A DNA stretch of 64,000 nt from NCBI GenBank assembly GCA_025786725.1, contig JAHLTZ010000008.1, positions 496,001 through 560,000 of the forward strand, read 5' to 3'. Of the stretch, positions 2,907 through 61,350 are shown in pieces. Source of the stretch: Syncephalis fuscata (lineage: Eukaryota; Zoopagomycota; Zoopagomycetes; Zoopagales; Piptocephalidaceae). The notes below the pieces were generated by a model. The model worked only from the letters and a program-made list of their open reading frames with translations, ran no database searches and had not been told where the DNA came from. A program made the translations under genes and the position numbers. Each line of letters starts with the position of its first letter. The first letter of the stretch is position 1.

Positions 2907-4418
2907 TCAATCGTGTTTAGACTGACAATCTTTAACGAGAAACTTTTCCAAATATTGTTGTGGTGTAGGCCGTTGTTGAGGATCACGTTTAAGTATGAAT
3001 TAAGTCGTTCTAGCATTGGTGAAAACTTATATCCATTGTATTCAACGTCCTTTGTAAATACACTCCATACATTTAGGTTAAAGTATCCGTTAGCTATCTC
3101 CTTAAGGTCGCCCTGATAGGCAGGATCGTCCAGTGGAATAGAAACGCAGCCATTAGTAGATCAGCCAAATTAGGTGTAAAGTAGAAATCTGGATGACGGG
3201 GAATATATTGAACATCTCTAAAGTACATTCTGGGTAGAACTTTTTCTGCACCTAACAAGATGGCCGGAGCTTTGTTGCGATCGCTTGAATTGTCAGCGTA
3301 CTCGCTCGAGAAAAAGCCCATAAATTTACTAAGCATAGGTGATACACGATCTCGAGGTTCGTTAGACCTATAGCCTAGTTTGTTAATTTGGCCAATTAAT
3401 TCGGCGATCTTTGCTTTAGCCTGCGCTATGGCCACTTGATTTGTGGGGATTGTACGCGATACGCCATAGAACAGCGCTGCTGCATCCCAAGTATCCTCTA
3501 GACGCGGATCCACAGCTGTTTTCTGGACCCATTCAGTCGAGTAGAGTAGGAATGGAGCTCGAGGTAGTTGTGGAACAACATTGTTTCCTCTGGATATTAA
3601 TGGTGCTGCTTGATCCGTAATACGAACAAAAATACTTGGATTATTTTTTGGCGAATTGACACAAAGCGCTGTAAAATCAATTAATATATGAATAATTGCT
3701 GACTTGTAACAACTTACTGCTAGGATTTATGCCTTTGTGAATCCATCCCGACTGATGCATAATGCTTAGACCTGAAATTTACAACTGATTAATGGTATAT
3801 ACAAAATATACAAAATTATTTACCCACCTTTCATTGTTTGATCCATAAAATTGGGCATTATTTCCGCAAGTTCTAGTCGAGACTTTTGCTTTGCGTATTC
3901 TACCAAAGTTACAGCACACTTTGCTGGTAAAGCATAGCAGAGCATTCCGTTTAATTCAAACGCATACTGAGGCCCTATTAAAGAAATACTTTTAGCCGAA
4001 CCAACGGGAGTAGAGCTCAAACGATAAAGATTCTGCAAAATAAAGATTTACAATTAGTAAACATAGCTCAATAGTATTCCAAGTTTACAAACCTGGTACA
4101 ACTTGAGTTTATCGTTTAATTTTTCGGCCCGGCTACATTCAATGCTAAACTGCTGGTCATTGATATGTCCAGTTGTAACTTGAACACCATTAACAAGCTT
4201 AAACTGCGTGTCAACTACAAGACCAGAAGGGATGGCCATTCTTGATACACCAGCAGCTATTGTTTAATTGATATCAGTTATATGCATTAGTCTCACTATT
4301 ATAACATACCATGTTGGTCATTAGATTTCTCTATACTAGCACCAGTACCATATACGGCCAAGCCAAGTACTAGGACGCCAACAATGGCAGTAAACTGGAA
4401 CTGTTTCATAAAAGTCAT
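2907..4418 (-). CDS. secreted pseudokinase-like protein, two frame breaks
   Basis: Signal peptide at the start (MTFMKQFQF followed by a hydrophobic stretch), then a degenerate protein-kinase fold. Exons: 4418-4310, 4256-4093, 4033-3838, 3771-3718 and 3668-2907. The catalytic-loop equivalent reads GWIHKGINPST, so the HRD aspartate is a glycine; the DFG equivalent reads TDQA. It should therefore be catalytically dead. The C-lobe ends with DPQQRPTPQQYLEKF, a typical kinase subdomain XI, but it is reached only after two -1 shifts, near 3130 and near 2990. Adding one base at each gives 1287 nt (428 aa). A paralogue at 56315-57802 has exons 2 and 4 of identical length (164 and 54 nt), which supports the model. 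Either a decaying gene or one with two consensus deletions. Function unknown; secretion is inferred from the N-terminus. Confidence 0.7.
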
Positions 4419-5270
4419 GATTGGTGTTTCTTTACGATGATGCGAAATAAAGCTTCGTTTTTAAGAAAAATCAAATTAATGTAGAGTAGTTGAAAAGACA
4501 CGACGATAAGCCATTAAATAGCTTTACTGTACACTGTGACATTATTCCAGACTGTATTGCCGAATAGTTGAAAGTTGAAAGTCCGAATTTTTATTGCTTT
4601 ACTGTCTGTTCTATATTTATTTGGTCAATAATGGCTATTTAATGACTATTACTAGATAATTTCATGTGGCAAAGAAGCTATAAAATCTTTAATTGGTCAC
4701 CGAGCTTTTTAGCGATTTTACTTCGTGGTCCCTGCCAAATTTGTAGTATGCCAGATTTGATTGGGATAAACGCCGACCATCCAAAAAAATAGCATAGTTC
4801 GATCATGGGTATTTGCCAAACTTGTACCATGACGAAAATGCCTTCCTACAAAAGATGTGATTTAAACTGGCTTTCAAAACAAAGCTTCAGGAGTTACACT
4901 GATGCCATTGCTCGTTTACAGATTGAATGCTTTGCTGCAATGGTTTCACTTGTTTAGAATTTTTTCAGCATTGGGCTGATACCACATTCCCGCGTCACAC
5001 TCGTGACAATGACTTGTTTCAAATATAACCATCATCCTTGTTTAATTGCTTGAACGAATGCAAAACGTGCGGAGCTACAACTATTGAATAAATAACGTTT
5101 TGATGAGTTCAATTTCCATTTATGAAAGCTACTTGTTTCTGCTTGGTTTCCATATATGGATTTATTCTCAATTTATAATTATATATCTGAAGGACGATAG
5201 GCATTTAGTACAACTCTTTCCGTAAAGCCCATAAACTGCATTTTTTTGTCCTCTACTACTGCATCAATTC
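4419..5270. promoter_or_regulatory. divergent intergenic region between pseudokinase and Anp1-family gene
   Basis: The genes on either side start outward from here, so both promoters should lie in this 850-bp stretch. I see no convincing specific element. Confidence 0.4.
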
Positions 5271-6367
5271 ATGAAGTATTCGTCTCAAAGCCGCCGGCTA
5301 AAGCAGCCACTGACACTGGTAGTCTTCTTTGGCCTTTTCCTGTTTCTAGGTATGTGGCTGGAATAATAGGTAACGTTGCTCTTATTTACACATCGACAGC
5401 AACCCAGCTGTTTAGAACACAGTACCAGAATACAAATGAAAGCGATAAAATCTTTATTGAGCCAGAACGGCCACTAAGACTACTAGACTTTGACAAGCTG
5501 CATAATGAAAACACCACGCTGATCCTTACACCATTGAAGAATGCTGCACGTCATTTGGATGCTTATTTTGAAAATCTCAATCGGCTTGATTTCCCAAAAC
5601 AGAAATTGTCATTGGGTTTTTTGGTGGGCGATTCAAACGATGGCACCTATGAAAAGTTGATGGCACATGTAGAACCAATTAAACACATGTATCAGCGCAT
5701 AACTGTGCTGCGCAAAGATTTCCCTGAAGATCCTTCTGCCCCGCGAAGCGGCATAGAACGCCATGCCTTTGAGGCGCAGGGTCCAAGACGTAAATTAATG
5801 GCCAAAAGTCGGAACTTTCTTCTTTCTGCGCTCGAGGACGAACAATGGATAGTGTGGTGGGATGTGGATGTTATTCAGTTTCCTACCAACATTATTCAAC
5901 AGCTGATTCGACATGACAAAGACGTGCTGGCCACCAATTGCTATTGTAAAATGCCAAATGGCTCGGAAATGGCCTATGATAACAATGCTTGGCATGAAAC
6001 ACCTCAAAGCAGAGAATGGATGGCCACTCGTGATCCAAACGAACTTTTTGTAGAAGGTAAGAACTTAACGGCATGCATTGTTGATGATGCTAATTAAACG
6101 ACATTTTTAGGTTATTATGACAAAATATGGACGAGGCGTATGCCACTAGCATCTTATCGAGACTATCCCAACTTTCCAATTGTCGAGTTGGACGGAGTAG
6201 GTGCCACGTTTCTCATGGTGAAAGCGGATGTTCATCGTGCAGGCGTCAATTTTCCTGCCTTTGTACTCGATCATCAAGTGGAAACAGAAGGACTTGCCAA
6301 AATGGCAAAGAAGGTTGGATTTAAAGTATGGGGGCTTCCTCAGCTTATCGTCTACCACCCTTGTTGA
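5271..6367 (+). CDS. Anp1/Mnn9/Van1-family Golgi glycosyltransferase (copy 1)
   Basis: Type II membrane glycosyltransferase of the Anp1/Mnn9/Van1 family, which in yeast extends alpha-1,6-mannan chains in the Golgi. Exons 5271-5349, 5400-6056 and 6111-6367; 993 nt, 330 aa. The start is the ATG at 5271, because it gives a short basic tail plus a hydrophobic anchor (LTLVVFFGLFLFL) and splices in frame; upstream frame without ATG is ignored. Family marks: ILTPLKNAARHLDAYF, FLVGDSNDGTYE, the metal-binding DXD in WWDVDV, NCYCKMPNG, and VELDGVGATFLMVKADVHR in the last exon with HQVETEGLA. Two more family members lie at 13354-14574 and 14752-15912; all three have a first intron just after the anchor and a last exon of 257 nt. 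Donor sugar and acceptor are inferred from yeast members only. Confidence 0.9.
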
Positions 6368-13353: not shown

Positions 13354-14574
13354 TTAGGCATTTAAGTGCAGTATTTTTAGATGTGGCATACCAAAGACGC
13401 CATAGCCAGCATCATTGGCCATTAGACCAAATCCTTCCGTTTCAACCTGATGTTTATACAGCAGTGGAGGAAAAAGTATACCTGATCTATGTACCTCAGC
13501 CTTGACTAAAAGCAATGTACCGCCTACAGCATCGAGATGAACGAGTGATTGCATTGGATCATCGGCATATTCAAATAGATATTTACGCCGTGTCCATAAA
13601 TCAGAGTAGCCTTTAAATTATTTAACATTTAATTAAATTAGTAACACTTAACGATAATAAATTATTATTATTATGCTACCTTCAAGAAATAGCTCATTCG
13701 GATCACGTGTTTTTGCCCAAGCTCTACTGGCATCCGTCTCGTGCCAGGCGTTTAAATCGTACGGTTGACGGGTACCATCGACCCATGTCCAGTAACAATT
13801 AGCTGTAACAATATCACGGTCTTGTTGCAGCATTGTTTCGATAGCATCGTTAGGTACTTCGACAAGATCAACATCCCACCATAGCACCCAATTTTCATCT
13901 TTTAAGGCACCCGTCACTAAGTGATTTCGTGCGCGGGCCATAATGGACCGACGTGCTAATTGGGCGGTAAATTCTTTGCGTTTATTGTTGGGCAATTCGT
14001 AGTTGAAATCACGACGTAGTACAGTGATACGTCGGTACAAATGTTGCACTGGTTGTAGTTTGTCCAATAATCGGTCGTATGTATCATCGGTACTATCACC
14101 GACGAGAAAGGCGAGTGATATGCTTTTTTTCGGATAGCTCATGGTCGCCAATAGTTCAAAGTAGCGTTCAAGTAGTTGATCAGCATTTTTAAGTGGTGTT
14201 AATAGTAATAGCTTTGGCATGGCATGCGTGTCGTTTAGATTGACCGGCGTTAATGGTGGATTTAAGCTACGCTCCACGACGTTATTTAATAAACCGAGAC
14301 CAGCACTAGAACTGCTTTTATTTTGCATTAAACAGTCAAGCCAGGTCTCTGCATTGCTACTATCCATCCAGCGTGCCAAATGGGCTGGTGACCATTCATC
14401 AAGCGGAACACAGCCGGGCGATAATAGCAGTGTGGTCAATGCTTTAAATAAATGTATATCAGCTAAATACGATCAATATACTACACTCGTCGTATACTCA
14501 CCCACAAGTGACACCATCGTCATACTAGCCGAGTATAATAAAAGAAGTCGCAAATTTTGTCGTCCTAGAGCCAT
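13354..14574 (-). CDS. Anp1/Mnn9/Van1-family Golgi glycosyltransferase (copy 2)
   Basis: Exons 14574-14502, 14441-13680 and 13610-13354; 1092 nt, 363 aa. Starts MALGRQNLRLLLLYSASM, a short basic tail plus hydrophobic signal anchor split by the first intron. Family marks: LLLTPLKNADQLLERYFE, LAFLVGDSTDDTYD, RARNHLV, DXD in WWDVDLVEVP, DLNAWHETDASR, and in the last exon LDAVGGTLLLVKAEVHRSG and HQVETEGFG. Same intron phases as copies 1 and 3. It has a longer stem between anchor and catalytic domain than copy 1. Likely a Golgi mannosyltransferase subunit; exact role inferred. Confidence 0.9.
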
Positions 14575-14751: not shown

Positions 14752-15912
14752 TTATGAGTTTCCGTGGTAGATGATATAATTGGGTAGGCCATAAATACCA
14801 AAGCCCATAAGTTTGGCCATTTTGCAAATCCTTCCGTTTCAAGCTGGTGCTTAACGGGGAAAGCAGGGAAATTGGCGCCGGCACGATGGACATCAGCACG
14901 AACCATTAAAAAAGTGCCGCCCACACCGTCAAGTTCAACAAGATTTTCACTTCTGCCACGATAGTCGTTGAGATAAAGACGATGGGTCCACATAACGTCG
15001 GGATAGCCTAATAAATTGTGTTAATAAATATTATTGGCTGTTATGGAATGCATTGTATTGCTAGTACAACATACCTTCAAGCAAAATATCATCCTCTTTC
15101 TTGTCTTCTTGAAATTTTCTACTATCTGACGTTTCTTGCCAGGTGTTCAAATCGTATGGATAGTCTTTTCCATTAGACATTTTGTAATAGCAGTTGGGCT
15201 GTATAACATCCTTGTTCCATCTAATTAAATCTTCAATAATAGTATGAGGGAATGTTGTGACATCAACATCCCACCAAACGACCCAGTCTTCGTCTTTAAT
15301 TGCGGTAATCAAAAAGTTACGAGACATGGACATCACTTTACGACGCGGAATCTGTGCCTGCCAGCCGTGGCGTTCTTCGTTACTAAGTTCATAGTGGAAA
15401 TTCTTTACAAAGTGAGTAACATGTCGGTATTTGTGTTTAACCTCTTCCAGTTTTGCTTGTAGCTTTTCATAAGTGCCATCGTCCGAGTCGCTGGTAAGAA
15501 AAGCCAATGATGTAAGATGTTTTGGGTAGGCCATGCGCTCTAAGTTCTCAAAATATTTTTCAATATGTTTGGCAGCATTCTTGACCGGTGTTAAAATGAT
15601 AACACGAGGTGCTTTATCGCCAATCTCGCTTTTTAATTCAGAAGGGGGCATGTCGTAATTGTACATACGAATCTTCTTTTCAAAACTTGTAGAATTCACA
15701 TTCTCACCGGAGGTCAATGCAGATTTTTGCGATGGATTTGAATCAACAATGCATTTTTGATTAGCGTTTGGCAATGCTAGATAGAATATAAAATATATTT
15801 AAATAAGTACATTTATATAGACTATTAATACCGTATTTAACGTACCGAAAAAGAAAAGCGCAGTAATAAAAACTGCGCAAATGCCAATAGCTGGTAGATT
15901 GCGACGTAGCAT
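14752..15912 (-). CDS. Anp1/Mnn9/Van1-family Golgi glycosyltransferase (copy 3), one frame break
   Basis: Exons 15912-15846, 15776-15075 and 15007-14752. N-terminal anchor MLRRNLPAIGICAVFITALF. Catalytic domain shows IILTPVKNAAKHIEKYFE, FLTSDSDDGTYE, SMSRNFL, DXD in WWDVDVTTFP, NCYYKMSNG and LDGVGGTFLMVRADVHR. After ETEGFAK the straight frame turns into nonsense. A -1 shift at the T-run 14820-14823 (plus strand) restores MAKLMGFGIYGLPNYIIYH and a stop at 14754-14752. The last exon is 256 nt here but 257 nt in both paralogues, so one base is missing from the sequence. Corrected length 341 aa. Adjacent to copy 2 on the same strand, probably a local duplication. Confidence 0.88.
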
Positions 15913-27003: not shown

Positions 27004-28652
27004 ATGCCACGTTTTGTATTTACACATACCAAGTTGTTGGTAAAACCAATTAAGACTTGTAAATTACCTGTGCCATTTGCCTGTCATTTCTCTACTGTCA
27101 GTAGTTCTGCCACAACGAGAGAAAGTTGCGAAAAAACGGCCATATATGCCTCTTGCTGGAAAAATCCATATCCAGATGATCAATTTGTAGTTAATGATTA
27201 TAATGGATTTCTTCCGCGCCAAGACCCATTAGTACGTCTTCCAAAAGAGTATGTTTCTTTAGAAAATTTACTGCAGCGTATGAGTATAAAACAACCGGAT
27301 GGCTCCCCAGGCTTACTAGAAGACAATGGATTTGGCAATGCCGTTTTGAAAGAATTCCCAGAATACGATGTTACTCGTGTAACCGATACTCGGATTTTAT
27401 CCGGTTAGTAAATCAGTAAATGATTGATAATAGTAAATTTAGCAACTTGATAATGTTTAGCACTTTATCGAGACCTGACTTTTGCCGCCAGTGCCTACTT
27501 ATTAGAGCCATGTGATGTGCAATTCCGCAAAACTGGCGAGTATGGTCTAGGCCGAGACGTACTTCCCCGTCAAATTGCTGTTCCATTGAGTGCTGTTGCT
27601 CAAAAAATAGGTGCACGCCCTTTTATGGAATATGCATTATCCTATGCTTTGTATAACTACCGTCGAGTGGACCCACTACGCCCACTAGACTACAAAAACC
27701 TTAAGCTTATACGCACATTCTCTGGCAATCAAGATGAACATGGCTTTATTCTTGTACACGTGGCAATGGTGCGATATTCCAACGCTCTCGTCGCAGCCTG
27801 TATTCGCAGCCTTGATGCGGTAGAAACTAAGGATCGCAAAGCATTTGATTCTGCCATGAAGGATGTTCGATCGATATACAATGAGATTATTGGAACTTTA
27901 GTTACTATGTGGAATCGAAGCGCACCCGAGAAATATTTAAGCTATCGCACTTTTATTATGGGAATTAAAAATCAAGTAAGTTTATCGATAAACTTTATAA
28001 ACATATCTAACATGACTGCTTTTAGCCTATGTTTCCAAATGGCATCATTTACGAAGGTGTATCCACCGAACGATTCAAGTTGCGTGGCGAATCTGGCGCC
28101 AACGACTCGATGATACCGCTTGGTGATAACCTTCTAGAACTTACAGCAGGCCATCCTAATAATCCATTGACCGAAGTGCTAAAAGACTTTCGCACGTACC
28201 GTCCACGTAATCACCGACTATTTCTTGAGCATATAAATTATCGCGCAACCTCACTTGGTTTACGTAAATTTGCCACGGCTGACGCTAATTCTGCTGCACT
28301 CTACCTTGCCAATCTTGATTTAATTCGATCATTTCGGCACCACCACTGGATGATGACAAAAGAATACATTATTAAACGTAGCAAACATCCAGTGGCCACT
28401 GGTGGATCACCCATTGTGACTTGGCTTCCAAACCAATTAATCTCTGTATTGGATACAATGAAAGAAGTAACCGACAACATTCAAATGAATCGGCTAACCG
28501 TGGATAATCATACTTTAGTAGCCGATATTAATCATCGCGCTTCGGCCGAAAAAAGAACACTTGCTCGTGAAGTGGCACAACTAGCTAAGCAAAGAGGTCG
28601 CAAAGCCACCCAAGTGGATGCTGTAGAAACGATTTCTACCAGGACGCAATAA
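27004..28652 (+). CDS. BNA2: indoleamine 2,3-dioxygenase (tryptophan to N-formylkynurenine)
   Basis: Haem enzyme that opens the indole ring of tryptophan, the first step of kynurenine/NAD biosynthesis in fungi. Exons 27004-27403, 27461-27975 and 28026-28652; 1542 nt, 513 aa. Family marks: ALYRDLTFAASAYLLEP, RPFMEYALSYALYNYRR, GVSTERFKLRGESGANDS (IDO signature region), RNHRLFLEH and SFRHHHWMMTKEYI, which includes the proximal haem histidine, then ATGGSPIVTWLPNQL. Exon 2 starts at 27461, because that keeps ALYRD. The first 45 residues are basic and Ser/Thr-rich, possibly a mitochondrial presequence; the ATG at 27004 is the first in frame. The name BNA2 follows the yeast orthologue. Confidence 0.9.
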
Positions 28653-37356: not shown

Positions 37357-40138
37357 TGTATTCTAGCATTATTATATGATGTTGGACTTTGCTACTTGTT
37401 AACGATTACCTTAATGTTCAGAATAAAACGTGTTGGTGAGTCAATATTGATTTAGTAATAATAATTTAGATATAATAAACGGAATAGCTTGCATGATACT
37501 ATGAGTAATAAAGTAAAACTAGAAATCGAGTATATTTTATTGATACTAAATAAGGTTGCTGCTTTGTAGTAGGCATAACTAATAGTAAAACCAAATGCTT
37601 TAGTATTACACCATCAATGCAATGTTATTAGTTCGTAAAAACAAGTATTTACTAGTTATATTATTGTAATACTTTCTTATTGTTAGTAGTCGGTGCTGAT
37701 ATCCAATAGTGTATTGTTCTTGTGACCAATATGTAATCTTAACAGCCATTCGATAACACAGTGTAATGCTTGGCTGTGCTTCATAACAATACAATCATCA
37801 TATGATTGTAATACTTTATTTTTAATAGCTATCACCGCAGTAAAATGACGACATGGCACTAGTTTATAAATTTAAATATAAAAATTATTGCACTAATGCT
37901 ACGATAGTATGCAGCAATATCGAAAGAGTACTTTTAATGTAATTAGATGGCATGACTTAATGCATGTAAGTTAAAAAACAATAGTAGTTGTTTGATTGAT
38001 GAACTGTTGACCATAATATGTATAACTTTACGTAAAATAAAGTAAATCGCCTGATATTTTGTACAAATATGCTTATGGCATATAGGTAGCTATTGGCAAA
38101 GTATACCGTTATTAAGTTGTGTGGTAATGTAATGATTTTAATAATACGCTAATAAATGTGTAAAAATAGCAGTTTTTTACTGTTCATAACTTATATACTT
38201 AAAATACAGCAAAATGATTGCTGGATTCGAGTTCTTCGTGCTTAGTTATACAGATTAGTACAAGAATTGGAACAAAAGTTTTGCAAAAAAATGTTAGTCA
38301 AAAATCCAATTTACGTATTTTTAATTTATTTGGTAAAGCGCTAATGATATTACGTATAACTTTACGTATAATCAAGTAAATTGTCTGATATTTTGCACAA
38401 GTATGCACATAACATATAGATAGCCATTGGCAAAGTATACCGTTATTGTATTGCATAATAGTGCAATGGTAGCGATAATACGCCAATAAATGTGCAAAAA
38501 TAGCAGTTTTTTACCATTCATGACTTGTATAACTAAAATACAGCAAAATGATTGCTGGATTCGAGTTCCCCGTGCTTAGTTATACAGATCAGTATAAGAA
38601 TTAAAGCAATGATTTTTGCAACAAAAGTTGGTCGAAAATGCAATTTGAGTATTTGTTAACTAGAATTACGTTATACGTATACACATAGCATAACTCGCTG
38701 CTGTGCATTGCTATTTTAACATAATGACTTGCTATCATGTTTGTTTTAGCACTGTAGAGCGCTGTAGATTTACTTTAGATTTACTTTTATTTTTGTTATT
38801 AAATCTTTAAATTCGTGGGATTTGCATAATTTCTTGTCAACTAATAACACGTAAATTGCATTTTCGACCAACTTTTGTTGCAAAAATCATTGCTTTAATT
38901 CTTATACTGATCTGTATAACTAAGCACGGAGAACTCGAATCCAGCAATCATTTTGCTGTATTTTAAGTATACAAGTCATGAATGGTAAAAAACTGTTATT
39001 TTTGCACATTTATTAGCGTATTATCGCTACCATTGCACTATTATGCAATACAATAACGGTATACTTTGCCAATGGCTATCTATATGTTATGTGCATACTT
39101 GTGCAAAATATCAGACAATTTACTTGATTATACGTAAAGTTATACGTAATATCATTAGCGCTTTACCAAATAAATTAAAAATACGTAAATTGGATTTTTG
39201 ACTAACATTTTTTTGCAAAACTTTTGTTCCAATTCTTGTACTAATCTGTATAACTAAGCACGAAGAACTCGAATCCAGCAATCATTTTGCTGTATTTTAA
39301 GTATATAAGTTATGAACAGTAAAAAACTGCTATTTTTACACATTTATTAGCGTATTATTAAAATCATTACATTACCACACAACTTAATAACGGTATACTT
39401 TGCCAATAGCTACCTATATGCCATAAGCATATTTGTACAAAATATCAGGCGATTTACTTTATTTTACGTAAAGTTATACATATTATGGTCAACAGTTCAT
39501 CAATCAAACAACTACTATTGTTTTTTAACTTACATGCATTAAGTCATGCCATCTAATTACATTAAAAGTACTCTTTCAATATTGCTGCATACTATCGTAG
39601 CATTAGTGCAATAATTTTTATATTTAAATTTATAAACTAGTGTCATGTCGTCATTTTACTGCGGTGATAGCTATTAAAAATAAAGTATTACAATCATATG
39701 ATGATTGTATTGTTATGAAGCACAGCCAAGCATTACACTGTGTTATCGAATGGCTGTTAAGATTACATATTGGTCACAAGAACAATACACTATTGGATAT
39801 CAGCACCGACTACTAACAATAAGAAAGTATTACAATAATATAACTAGTAAATACTTGTTTTTACGAACTAATAACATTGCATTGATGGTGTAATACTAAA
39901 GCATTTGGTTTTACTATTAGTTATGCCTACTACAAAGCAGCAACCTTATTTAGTATCAATAAAATATACTCGATTTCTAGTTTTACTTTATTACTCATAG
40001 TATCATGCAAGCTATTCCGTTTATTATATCTAAATTATTATTACTAAATCAATATTGACTCACCAACACGTTTTATTTGAACATTAGGTGATCGTTAACA
40101 AGTATCAAAGTCTAACACCATGCAATAATGCTAGAATA
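37357..40138. repeat. 2.8-kb near-perfect inverted repeat (foldback element)
   Basis: The left arm 37357-38646 and right arm 38853-40138 are reverse complements around a centre at 38749.5, with a spacer of about 206 bp. Pairing is so regular that 37606-37794 and 39705-39893 encode the same 62 residues, and the position sum stays 77499 over more than a kilobase. Each arm holds two direct copies of a roughly 300-bp unit (about 38025-38340 and 38345-38646; mirrored at about 38853-39155 and 39160-39475), recognisable by GGCAAAGTATACCGTTATT and AATACAGCAAAATGATTGC. A related, older element lies at 58495-59545. No transposase frame; a non-autonomous foldback transposon is the best guess. Confidence 0.88.
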
Positions 40139-45824: not shown

Positions 45825-46085
45825 TAATGGTTTTTGGTGTCAAATGACTTTTATTCTTTTAATACATTCGCCATTATACTGAATATATATTCTATAATAA
45901 TGAGTGTTTTTTGGGTGTAAATGACTTATTATATTTTATTATATTTGTTAGTATACTGAATATATGTTCTATGATAATGAGTAGTTTTGGTGTCAAATGA
46001 CTTTTATTCTTAATGCATTATTGCTTTACTTGTTGTTCTATGATGTACGACATGTTGGGTAGATTGACTTTTATTATTTCACACT
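45825..46085 (+). repeat. about 100-bp tandem repeat, three copies
   Basis: The unit holds GGTGTCAAATGACTTTTATT (45835), GGTGTAAATGACTTATTA (45915) and GGTGTCAAATGACTTTTATT (45989), each but the last followed by ATACTGAATATAT and TATAATAATGAGT-like blocks. The first block is shared with the dispersed repeat family, so the array may have grown from one such copy. Confidence 0.55.
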
Positions 46086-56314: not shown

Positions 56315-57802
56315 ATGATAAGCAGCGTCTTGGCACTGATATTTATTGTTCAGCCTATATTTGCTACACCGCGTAAAGCCAATTTACCCGAAGGTAGATT
56401 ATTATACCAGATAGTTTATGCGTCCATACTAATAGCATTGATATATAGATGTATTTGAACCTGATCCACCGCAAGTATACGATGGTATTGATATACCCGC
56501 TGGATTTGAACAAGGTGAAGAGACATCATGGGAGCAACAACTACAAGGCATGGATGTGAATGTCATGTGCCGCATACGAAACAATCTCAATGATAAATTT
56601 CGATTTCTTCAGGTATTTATTAAATATTGCGAATATTACAACTAGCTAAGCAATTATAAATCTAGGACCTTAGCCGCAAACGAGTGCTATTACAAAATGA
56701 TCCCGGACGCCAGTATGTTTTACACCCGCAACGCTCGTTCACTTTTCGAGGCAAGCGCTGTTTTGTTATGCCTCGCTCAGTTGATGAAAATTTGAATGAC
56801 TTTTATTTAAATTACATACCATCTTTGGCTGAAGCTAAATCGATTTTATCATTTTTCACTAAATTGATACAAGGTAGGCCTAGCCGATATGTTTACGTAT
56901 GCACAGTATCTCATAATGAAATATGATTAGGTATTAATTATATCCACAAAGTTGGATGGACCAACATTAGTTTAAATGAGTTCAGTAAGAAAATGTCGCA
57001 TTAACATTTAAGCCATTGCTAACTATAAATTATAGGCATTGTTGTTAAATCAAATCTCAGTAAATATCCTGTTATCAATGTAATGAAAATTGAACAGCTA
57101 AGACGCATCGAATTTAAAAACAATATTGTAGTACCGATAGATGCACCTCAAATGAAACTATTATATCTTCCTGAATGGATCAAAAATACTAAAATCGATC
57201 CACGTAAGGCTGATCTATGGAGAATCGGCGAACTTTTTTATGCTTTCCAATATGAATTCTACTTTAAGATGCCAAAAAAATCCACTAAGCAAATTTTAGA
57301 AGAAACTTTTTCCAAAATGCCAGACGTCAAGCCAGAACTCCACGACACACAACAGCAGTTCAAAAGATTTATGCCATACTTCAAGAAACTTATTGAAGAT
57401 AGCTATCAATCTGGATTAATAACAAAAAATAACGGTCGAGCTATTCTATTAAATACGAACAGCAGCCTTCCAAAGAACAGTATTGATATATCGTTGTCGC
57501 CAATCAAGCAAATTTATTTAACGACAGAAATGCTAGACTTATTTATTGCTGCGCAAAACTGTGTTTTTGGAAATAAGCCTTTGCGAGGATACTCACAGTT
57601 TTTGCTTAATGGGCTCTTCCAACTAGGAATATATAGCATGCTTCCTGATATGTATGTAGCACATCCAAATGAATATACTCCCGTATTAGACATGCTAAAT
57701 AGGCTGCTAACACTCAATCCCGAAGAGCGATTAACGCCGGACCAATACTTGAGACAATTTGATAGAAATACAAATGCCAACCGTTTGCATGTATCTGATT
57801 AA
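56315..57802 (+). CDS. secreted pseudokinase-like protein, intact paralogue
   Basis: Exons 56315-56393, 56449-56612, 56666-56873, 56931-56984 and 57036-57802; 1272 nt, 423 aa. Starts MISSVLALIFIVQPIFA, a clear signal peptide with cleavage after IFA likely. The body follows the kinase C-lobe plan: KRCFVMPRSVDENLNDF (hinge region), YIHKVGWTNISLNEF where HRDxxxxN should be, DPRKADLWRIGELFYAF (DxWxxG of subdomain IX), and NPEERLTPDQYLRQF (subdomain XI). The catalytic Asp and the DFG motif are absent, so it is a pseudokinase. Paralogue of the damaged gene at 2907-4418, with the same exon plan (exons 2 and 4 both 164 and 54 nt). Function unknown; a secreted effector or regulator is conceivable. Confidence 0.8.
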
Positions 57803-59545: not shown

Positions 59546-60359
59546 AAAAGAATAAAAACTTATATTCAAATGTGTAATCCACATTGAACCATTTAGTCAG
59601 TGATGCTTATATTAGATCATAATAAAAAGATTTAATTACACTATTTGATTCAAAGTGTCAGCTATTTTACATCATTTGCCTATTCCAATGCATTCATTGT
59701 TCGTTCTTAATTATATTGCTTCATTTTCAATCAGTTTCCTCTTTCATGGTATCCATTAATTGTCACTAGCATGATTATTTATTAGTGTATGCACTTAATT
59801 CGTTTAACACATAATTTGGTAATAGTTTTAACTAAACAGCACTATTCTCAGCATTGTAGACGTAATAATTGTACAATCCTCAATACTATAACGCCTGTTT
59901 TATAACAATATACATAGATTCAAAGCGAATAATGAAGTATTATTATACTTCTACCAATATTATAGCTCTTTGGCTGTATGGCATTTTTCAAATTAGTACA
60001 GCTGATTACATTGTTAGTAGATATTGTTACACTATTCAAATAAAATATTGCTATTTTAATATCAATATTGGAACAGCCGTGTATATATATTTGAAACAAA
60101 GTATATTTGTATAAATTTGCTGTTAATTTACTTAGTTAATTAATCACTGCTGATCATTGGATGTAAATAAACGCTGAACAAAATGTAACAGATTGCTAAA
60201 TACAATTAAAACAAACTTGTGTTTACTCAAACAAGTCTACATAGATGAATAAACCAGAGAGTTGGCTAAAATTTAATATTTGGATGGTCTAAATGGCATA
60301 GGTGTTAGTGGTTTTTGCTTTTCAAATATGTATTTAAAATAAATTAGGCTGCAGTCTAA
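59546..60359. other. spacer downstream of the micro-exon peptide gene
   Basis: Contains the presumed 3' UTR of the minus-strand peptide gene. The open frame 59869-60114 on the plus strand shows no recognisable content. Confidence 0.4.
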
Positions 60360-61350
60360 TTACGCTACTAATGTTAATGTCTTGCGTGTATCAGTTATTC
60401 TATGTTTATATATATATATAGCAAATAACATATAATTAGTTCATAAAACAATAATATGTAATTCTACTTACAACCTATTAATATTAAGTTTTTGATGCAA
60501 ATAGTGAGTATATATTTAGTAAATAATTAATTTCCATGTAAAACACTTACAATCTATCAAATCAATTTGTCAATAAACAAAATACATAACATATAATTAG
60601 TACATAGCTAGTTGACATATAATACAATTTACTAACTATTAACATTAAATTATTGACACGAATAATATACATGCAATATCACTTACTATCTATCAATGTT
60701 AATTTGCCAATATGCATAATAAACAAATTGTAATTAGCACATAGTTAATCAGTATGCAATACCACTTACAAGCTATCCATATTAAATTATTAATGCACAA
60801 AGTGTACAATATGCAATTAGTGCGTAACTAATTAATATACAATACAACTTACGACCTATTATATTAAGTTTTTAATACAAATATCATATAGTATTTATTT
60901 AATACGTGGTCAACTAATATACAGTATTACTTACAGCCTTTTAACATTAAATTGTTAATGAATACGATACATAGTTTGTGATTAGAGGATAAACAACCAA
61001 TATGCAATACTACTTACGTTCTGGTAATAGTAAATTATTGATACATAGAGGCAATATGAAATTAGTGTATATGTAACTAATGAAGTATGGTACTTACTTT
61101 CTATTGGTTTTAGTTTAATAAAAAGCAATGTTTAATTGAATTGCCAGTTAACATATAACCGGCGCTACATAGTTGCAACTTACCGCCTAACAACATCATT
61201 GGTTAATTATATACTATAAGCATAGCTCTATGGAATATATTGTAATTGTAACGTACCACGCCGGGTTAGAGTTGGAGTAGCATCTACTATGCTTGTATTA
61301 GCCACAAAAGCCACAAAAAGAACGCAGAAGATGGCAATAGAAAGTCGCAT
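60360..61350 (-). CDS. secreted cyclic-peptide precursor built from ten 3-nt exons
   Basis: Exon 1 (61350-61257) encodes a signal peptide, MRLSIAIFCVLFVAFVA, then a short pro-region ending TPTLTRR, and stops after one base of the next codon. Ten 3-nt exons follow: 61186-61184 gcg, 61100-61098 aaa, 61020-61018 aac, 60937-60935 gct, 60855-60853 gtc, 60772-60770 ctt, 60689-60687 ata, 60635-60633 tta, 60553-60551 att and 60474-60472 gtt. Each is preceded by AG and followed by GTAAGT, GTAAGC or GTAAAT-type donors. The last exon (60367-60360) ends in TAA. Every junction is phase 1. The spliced product adds GEKRCPYINCLA; total 132 nt, 43 aa. RR and KR are Kex2-type sites, leaving CPYINCLA with a six-residue Cys ring. 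The last acceptor is a NAGNAG (TAGTAG), so CPYINCS is an alternative. A secreted signal (pheromone-like) or cyclic RiPP is plausible; transcription and splicing are unproven. Confidence 0.7.
60471..61183 (-). repeat. tandem array of homologous introns, each unit intron plus 3-nt exon
   Basis: Introns 2-10 of the peptide gene measure 83, 77, 80, 79, 80, 80, 51, 79 and 76 nt and align with one another: a GTAAGT donor, a TATTGCATAT-like block, a TACTAAT/GCACTAATT block in the middle, then TTAATAATTTAATAT and ATAG. Intron 8 has an internal deletion. The triplets between the conserved splice sites all differ. The array therefore grew by duplication of an intron-plus-triplet unit, each step adding one in-frame residue. 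Introns 1 (61256-61187) and 11 (60471-60368) flank it and are less similar. Confidence 0.8.

Follow-up and report, generated by a model that had tools for sequence, protein, structure and literature searches.

A predicted secreted-peptide gene family with arrays of 3-nt exons in the fungus Syncephalis fuscata

Several systems in which proteins are encoded by very small exons have been described. The micro-exon genes (MEGs) of schistosomes encode secreted proteins of the parasite, with a coding sequence that is contained mostly in very small symmetrical exons (3-81 bp) and a mature part that evolves fast (PMC4350168; PMC10526429). The bicycle genes of aphids have about 17 exons per gene on average, their internal exons are almost all in phase 2, and one such gene has more than 100 microexons (PMC9168663). 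Isolated exons of extreme size are also on record, for instance the 1-nt exons of APC11 and VPS55 in plants and of CYP621A in fungi (PMC8831610; PMC4674806; PMC12940212) and the two 3-nt exons of a duplicated fungal lipS gene (PMC5639578). Exons of 3 bp have also been reported in fungal mitochondria. At recursive (ratchet) splice sites and in stwintrons the acceptor and the donor are directly adjacent or one is interrupted by the other, which leads to an ordered removal of introns. Neither a run of 3-nt exons, nor work on micro-exons in Syncephalis, nor any account of the family described below was found among the matches listed in the open-licence PMC literature, to which subscription journals are largely external.

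S. fuscata is placed in the Zoopagales (Piptocephalidaceae), and Syncephalis is called an obligate mycoparasite in the title of a reference in PMC6784888. A strain of S. fuscata, S228, is named in PMC7466969. Here we describe a locus of this fungus in a window of 64,000 nt (the whole stretch of DNA that was analysed). We read it as belonging to a large gene family for secreted, mostly cysteine-rich peptides, in which about one 3-nt exon encodes each mature residue and splicing is ordered; on the sequence evidence given below we put the probability of this reading at about 0.87.

Anatomy of the window gene

The locus lies on the minus strand (61350-60398) and was read as a leader exon, ten 3-nt exons and a terminal exon, as follows (a slash marks the place of an intron in a codon).

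61257..61350 (-): exon 1, MRLSIAIFCVLFVAFVANTSIVDATPTLTRR and base 1 of the codon that follows; donor GTACGT, phase 1
60400..61256 (-): array of introns and micro-exons, with ten 3-nt exons between eleven GT-AG introns (51-83 nt)
61184..61186 (-): 3-nt exon 1, GCG; completes Gly (G/GC)
61098..61100 (-): 3-nt exon 2, AAA; Glu (G/AA)
61018..61020 (-): 3-nt exon 3, AAC; Lys (A/AA)
60935..60937 (-): 3-nt exon 4, GCT; Arg (C/GC)
60853..60855 (-): 3-nt exon 5, GTC; Cys (T/GT)
60770..60772 (-): 3-nt exon 6, CTT; Pro (C/CT)
60687..60689 (-): 3-nt exon 7, ATA; Tyr (T/AT)
60633..60635 (-): 3-nt exon 8, TTA; Ile (A/TT); donor GTAAAT
60551..60553 (-): 3-nt exon 9, ATT; Asn (A/AT)
60472..60474 (-): 3-nt exon 10, GTT; Cys (T/GT); the final T opens the stop codon
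60398..60399 (-): first two bases (AA) of the terminal exon, completing the stop T/AA; 3'UTR next

The preliminary description of this locus had reported ten triplets between AG and a GTAAG or GTAAAT donor behind a leader exon, eleven introns that all run from GT to AG in phase 1, and a chain that ends in frame at TAA. All ten triplets are present on the minus strand, the coordinates bear out the introns (in order 70, 83, 77, 80, 79, 80, 80, 51, 79, 76 and 72 nt long), and the chain does end at TAA, a stop that the last intron divides into T (60472) and AA (60399-60398). The donor behind the triplets is GTAAGT nine times and GTAAAT once (after TTA), where both near-copies of the locus have GTAAGT; these two further copies are 98% identical to it over 1.1 kb and carry the identical ten triplets. 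The motif AG-NNN-GTAAGT is found 11 times in the window against 1.86 expected, a count that was reached in 0 of 100 shuffles, and nine of the 11 matches fall in the array. A conventional ORF through the array was rejected: in 60301-61350, none of the six frames stays open for more than 49 codons.

The peptide decoded from the locus is MRLSIAIFCVLFVAFVANTSIVDATPTLTRR-GEKRCPYINC-stop, and its leader is related to the family leader MKLSIAVVC...PALVRR. The Lys-Arg of 3-nt exons 3 and 4 is a possible Kex2-type site, and with its two cysteines the product might form a CPYINC ring behind KR.

Several other features were observed in the window. These include a bestrophin gene matching S. fuscata proteins, an indoleamine 2,3-dioxygenase-like gene (27454-28652 (+), with Pfam IDO on the second ORF) and, within about 11 kb, three Anp1-type glycosyltransferase-like genes (5201-6097 (+), 13648-14472 (-) and 15061-15798 (-)), two of them recognised by Pfam Anp1 and the third by resemblance. 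A degenerate protein-kinase-like ORF (57029-57802 (+); Pfam Pkinase E 2e-4, below the cut-off) is resembled by an ORF without a Pfam match at 3094-3726 (-), and the two perhaps represent a lineage-specific family. Repeats were seen at 38842-39486 (a 334-bp tandem repeat of 1.9 copies, in an AT-rich stretch) and at 45831-46011 (a 77-bp repeat).

The array family in the genome

When the window locus was searched as DNA against the genome that it belongs to, 205 matches were obtained. The pattern ATAG-NNN-GTAAGT occurs 3,714 times (1622+2092) in 28.95 Mb against 95 times (52+43) for the reversed control pattern, and ATTAG-N6-GTAAGT is enriched as well (145 vs 42 in the control, genome-wide); spacers of 4-5 nt (289 vs 285) and of 1-2 nt (259 vs 250) are at background over the same genome. 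Chance or satellite DNA was rejected as an explanation on these length-specific counts together with the reading phase. At about 81 nt each, the 3-nt units occupy roughly 0.3 Mb. The start of the first intron, GTATGTTNCAATAACAATA, has 161 occurrences with at most two mismatches against 16 in the control, and there may be about 145 genes with such a start, an estimate taken straight from these match counts. First-intron starts of the form GTATGTTGCAATTACAATA were observed in series on contig C223 (e.g. at 244740, 270710 and 321109), which suggests another subfamily.

The anatomy of the family was studied in 27 loci, namely the window gene, 20 array stretches taken from its strongest matches (not at random) and six stretches picked as likely duplicates. 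Exons were called by a chain search that permitted 1-15 nt and used a splice-site profile trained on 3- and 6-nt spacings, which biases the called lengths to 3 and 6 nt (the pattern counts are free of that bias); it yielded 682 exons, of which 636 are 3 nt, 36 are 6 nt, six are 2 nt and four are odd. As in a micro-exon gene architecture, 672 of the 682 are 3 or 6 nt long; phase 1 is the reading phase in the 21 loci tested below. Introns measure 76-80 nt in 577 of 655 cases. The donors behind the 3- and 6-nt exons are strong, as is typical of U2-type introns, with GTAAGT in 586 and GCAAGT in eight of 672 cases. The 3-nt exons mostly follow ATAG and the 6-nt exons follow ATTAG (35 of 36 cases); it was also observed that 6-nt exons often recur at about the third exon position. 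With regard to the general branch-point motifs, a yTnAy-type match is commonest at two distances from the end of the intron, 10 nt and 4 nt, with 437 matches at either distance in 646 introns, and CT[AT]A[CT] is present 8-30 nt before the end in 144 of 646 introns. For comparison, introns of the ordinary kind, five of which were picked out by eye in the window, are 51-69 nt long, with the donors GTAAGT, GTAGCA, GTATGT, GTAATT and GTAAAT and the acceptors TTAG (four) or AAAG.

The leader exons of the decoded genes end in phase 1 at 94 or 97 nt, mostly after RR (L047 has a leader without RR), and the runs that follow comprise about 10-40 micro-exons per gene. A hydrophobic N-terminal leader is seen directly in the family sequences, and the products appear to be secreted. 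We take the RR at the end of the leader to be a likely Kex2-type site; with cleavage at that point, the mature peptide would be encoded almost wholly by micro-exons.

A number of loci deviate from this scheme. L048, L054, L057 and L073 each have one frame-breaking 2-nt exon (4 of 27 arrays), the reading frame is also broken in the L048 leader, and L077 has AT in place of GT at its first donor, all of which point either to pseudogenes or decaying genes or to assembly errors; two of the six 2-nt calls (in L075 and L076) are readable as 6-nt exons with an upstream CAG. L042, L050 and L073 did not decode cleanly, L043, L051 and L074 retain one long gap, and in L040 and L057 the array extends beyond the best decoded chain, with the leaders lying 2-3.6 kb upstream of it. 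The leader finder, which demanded phase 1 and a GTA donor, missed L076, L077 and L078 (first donors GTGTGT, ATATGC and GTATGC, respectively).

Reading phase and intronless paralogues

The reading phase was tested on 21 loci, broken at odd exons and long gaps, with 5000 within-array shuffles of the triplets. Phase 1 contains one stop in 519 split codons against 31.9 +- 4.2 in the shuffled arrays (minimum 18), and that stop is the last called unit of L057, where it may be the natural end of the gene. Cysteine codons in phase 1 number 96 against 45.2 +- 4.7 (highest 63 of 5000). Phases 2 and 0 were rejected, with 48 stops in 519 and five stops in 549 codons, respectively. The information between the final base of an exon and the two that open the following one was 0.345 vs 0.07 bit. 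Among 21 decoded genes with a leader, ten encode at least six and 15 at least four cysteines. A spacing CxxCxxxC...CxxxCxxxC is illustrated by 20 hand-picked sequences (11 of 14 intronless and nine of 18 decoded proteins), which were chosen for showing this frame and give no frequency. None of eight proteins gave a Pfam match above the cut-off and the sequence matches in the PDB were insignificant. For alpha-hairpinin-like peptides (a helical hairpin with CxxxC...CxxxC), the matches were confined to vicilin peptides at E 0.7.

We also found 27 intronless paralogues with the family leader in the same genome, using one annotated S. fuscata protein as the query; the 14 + 15 stretches that were fetched consist of these 27 contiguous genes, L089 (a gene of the microexon type) and L090 (without an ORF). 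Most of the intronless paralogues have a Cys-rich mature part, and the terminal exon of the arrays has, as judged by eye, its counterpart in their stop region and 3'UTR (TAATCGATGG... vs CAG/AATAATCGATGG...). Twelve of the 27 array loci are clean genes (leader detected, 3- and 6-nt exons only, no long gap), and their decoded peptides gave a mean score of 46.7 against the first 14 intronless proteins, compared with 27.9 when the triplets were shuffled, 19.3 and 20.6 when a wrong phase was read, and 36.0 (highest 39.6) when the residues were permuted. The alignment between intronless L082 and decoded L055, for instance, extends from one end of the mature part to the other and takes in the NP that comes from the terminal exon; its score is 66 vs a highest of 50 in 500 permutations. 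A decoded stretch of L077 matched two places in the genome, both of them intronless paralogues, although weakly (E 0.046; PALVRR included). A near-identical intronless copy of a decoded peptide, which would amount to a natural cDNA, was not found among the 27 intronless loci, the best matches being diverged.

The preliminary description had taken the triplets for coding 3-nt exons, a proposal that gains support from their length specificity throughout the genome, the phase, the rarity of stops and the enrichment of cysteine, and also from the constraint on the splice sites and the leader, frame, stop and 3'UTR of the intronless paralogues; we regard the triplets as probable coding exons.

A profile of the family, run against 5.77 billion proteins, retrieved 12 proteins, all of S. 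fuscata; this search is word-based and reaches only relatives that share 5-residue words, and within that reach neither homologues of schistosome MEG proteins nor of bicycle genes were found. Three of the 12 (P0123, P0130 and P0131) are intronless paralogues of the set. P0123, which has the full Cys frame, was considered as a product of micro-exons and rejected when it proved to be such a paralogue. P0121, P0122, P0125 and P0127 have the family leader and tails without the Cys frame; P0121 has its tail within the L057 array, and the S. fuscata proteins at NCBI do not show micro-exon chains. The public annotation of this family is probably wrong.

Evolution, proposed splicing and comparison with known systems

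In six overlapping pairs of paralogues the splice sites differ by 0-1.9%, the flanking introns by 2-10% and the triplets by 3-50%; the splice sites are the most conserved bases of the units, and the triplets usually diverge faster than the introns around them. The statement in the preliminary description that the triplets are the sole non-conserved part of the unit is thus roughly right; in a comparison of seven pairs, two run in the opposite direction, namely L075/L076 (triplets 1.4%, introns 3.7%) and L046/L052 (0 and 0.8%). Young duplicates (72 unit pairs from nine gene pairs) show a 2.5-fold excess of changes in the triplets (9/216) over the flanks (185/11,269). Within genes, units with flanks 4-10% apart have triplets that are 58-67% different, compared with 72% for random pairs. 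In L057, for instance, units 2 and 4 have one difference in 156 intron bases and share no exon base (GAT vs CTC), and within-gene pairs with such near-identical introns come mostly from L049 and L057 (34 of the 39 listed). Changes at N1, N2 and N3 number 41, 28 and 37 over the six overlapping pairs, which is not decisive for hypermutation. Over ten aligned pairs, Cys positions were kept in 36 of 61 cases and other positions in 63 of 185. Whole units are gained or lost between paralogues, for instance eight between L046 and L052. Trees of the 5' region, exon 1 and the 3' region, in which the root is unsure and from which rows without a detected leader, L040, L057, L089 and L090 were omitted, give at least three changes of architecture with 35 rows and at least six with 48 rows, of which well-supported branches force three and two, respectively; L066 is nested with L054/L055 in the first tree, a nesting that is lost in the second. 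Micro-exon and intronless genes interleave in these trees, and the family has probably switched several times between the two architectures.

Anatomy, phase, coding constraint and intronless paralogues are observed in the sequence. In this anatomy, exon 1 encodes a hydrophobic leader, usually with a dibasic RR at its end; about 10-40 phase-1 exons follow, mostly 3 nt and in some cases 6 nt long, between introns of mostly 76-80 nt, and a short terminal exon holds the stop. The remainder of the explanation that we propose is inferred. The introns, most likely of the U2 type, would each be recognised through intron definition. With only 3 nt between an acceptor and the donor that follows it, simultaneous splicing of neighbouring introns is implausible, and their removal is therefore probably sequential: each splice would join NNN to the growing exon and expose the next GTAAGT, as at a recursive splice site except that one codon would be kept per step. 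The product would be cut after RR where this is present, would fold into a small disulfide-containing peptide and would probably act towards the fungal host, such a role being our guess from the leader, the cysteines and the fast evolution. Recombination between similar introns would add or remove whole codons in frame, and the residues between the cysteines would change fast.

The use to which the triplets are put could be different. They may be exons that are included combinatorially, so that the skipping of symmetrical 3-nt exons produces many peptides per locus, as was proposed for schistosome micro-exon genes. That nearly all units are in phase 1 and 3 or 6 nt long, so that a skip keeps the frame, and that all units have very similar splice sites without a visible order is in line with this; the Cys spacing of the better-conserved members and the co-linear intronless L082, however, suggest that full inclusion gives the functional product, and we consider widespread skipping possible but doubtful. 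It is very improbable that the arrays are a decayed or non-coding satellite, with exon 1 joined either to the terminal exon or to exons that arise by chance in the array, and the triplets never present in mRNA. Such a satellite would fit the position of the annotated P0121 tail and the frame-breaking 2-nt exons in 4 of 27 arrays, but it does not account for the avoidance of stops and the enrichment of cysteine in phase 1 only, for splice sites of single units that are the most conserved bases, or for decoded peptides that match the intronless paralogues better than the controls do.

The arrays might have originated from introners that entered a contiguous ancestral gene between its codons, and not by tandem duplication of an intron plus a codon. 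Near-identical introns that flank unrelated triplets (0/78 and 1/78 differences for L057 units 2 and 4) and the broadly similar lengths of decoded and contiguous peptides would agree with such an origin. We nevertheless think it rather unlikely, as paralogues differ by whole units, adjacent introns resemble each other slightly more than distant introns do, phase and spacing are nearly invariant, and triplets differ in 14 of 19 same-gene pairs with 4-6% flank divergence against 7 of 72 different-gene pairs with less than 6%. Introners are expected in many unrelated genes; the introns compared here, which are similar, come from one gene family. A targeted process that rewrites the triplets (hypermutation or intron-guided conversion) would explain why triplets within a gene are near saturation (0.58-0.67 vs 0.72 for random), often with all three bases changed. 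This we hold to be highly unlikely: the excess in young duplicates is only 2.5-fold, L075/L076 and L046/L052 show none, and diversifying selection with short-tract conversion of introns would suffice without new machinery. Since the triplets are saturated within genes and seldom so between genes, we favour duplication of units combined with short-tract homogenisation of introns and diversifying selection.

The preferred reading, a family of secreted peptides with about one codon per exon, has several implications if the arrays are spliced as read. They would take exon size, in large-scale use, to its extreme limit, challenge steric and exon-definition ideas of how splice sites are paired, and offer a natural test of ordered splicing, with dozens of introns 3 nt apart in each transcript; a single recombination event would add or remove exactly one residue in frame. 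There is no known precedent for a chain of about 40 introns with 3-nt intervals, and such a chain could be spliced poorly. Only tentatively do we go further and suggest a gene class of one residue per exon, with about 3,700 codon-sized exons in at least about 100 loci, obligately ordered ratchet splicing, editing by recombination of introns, a library of peptides made by exon skipping, and an arms race of fungus on fungus. The findings also suggest that a large putative effector family of an early-diverging fungus escapes standard gene finding and that other genomes may conceal families of this kind.

The S. fuscata arrays can be regarded, on their predicted structure, as an extreme variant of micro-exon gene architecture. 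Like the schistosome MEGs, the family belongs to a parasite, is predicted to be secreted and combines tiny symmetrical exons with a fast-evolving mature part; MEG exons, however, vary in length and lie between long introns of up to 5 kb, whereas the exons of S. fuscata are almost all 3 nt, separated by repetitive introns of about 80 nt in runs of up to about 40, and would encode small fungal peptides. With the bicycle genes they share the character of a putative secreted effector family with many small internal exons of one phase, but the S. fuscata arrays are in phase 1 and have one codon per exon. The single ultra-small exons show that exons of 1-3 nt can be retained, although these are isolated and do not form runs that encode a whole peptide. 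Finally, recursive splice sites keep 0 nt at each step, whereas the S. fuscata arrays would keep one codon.
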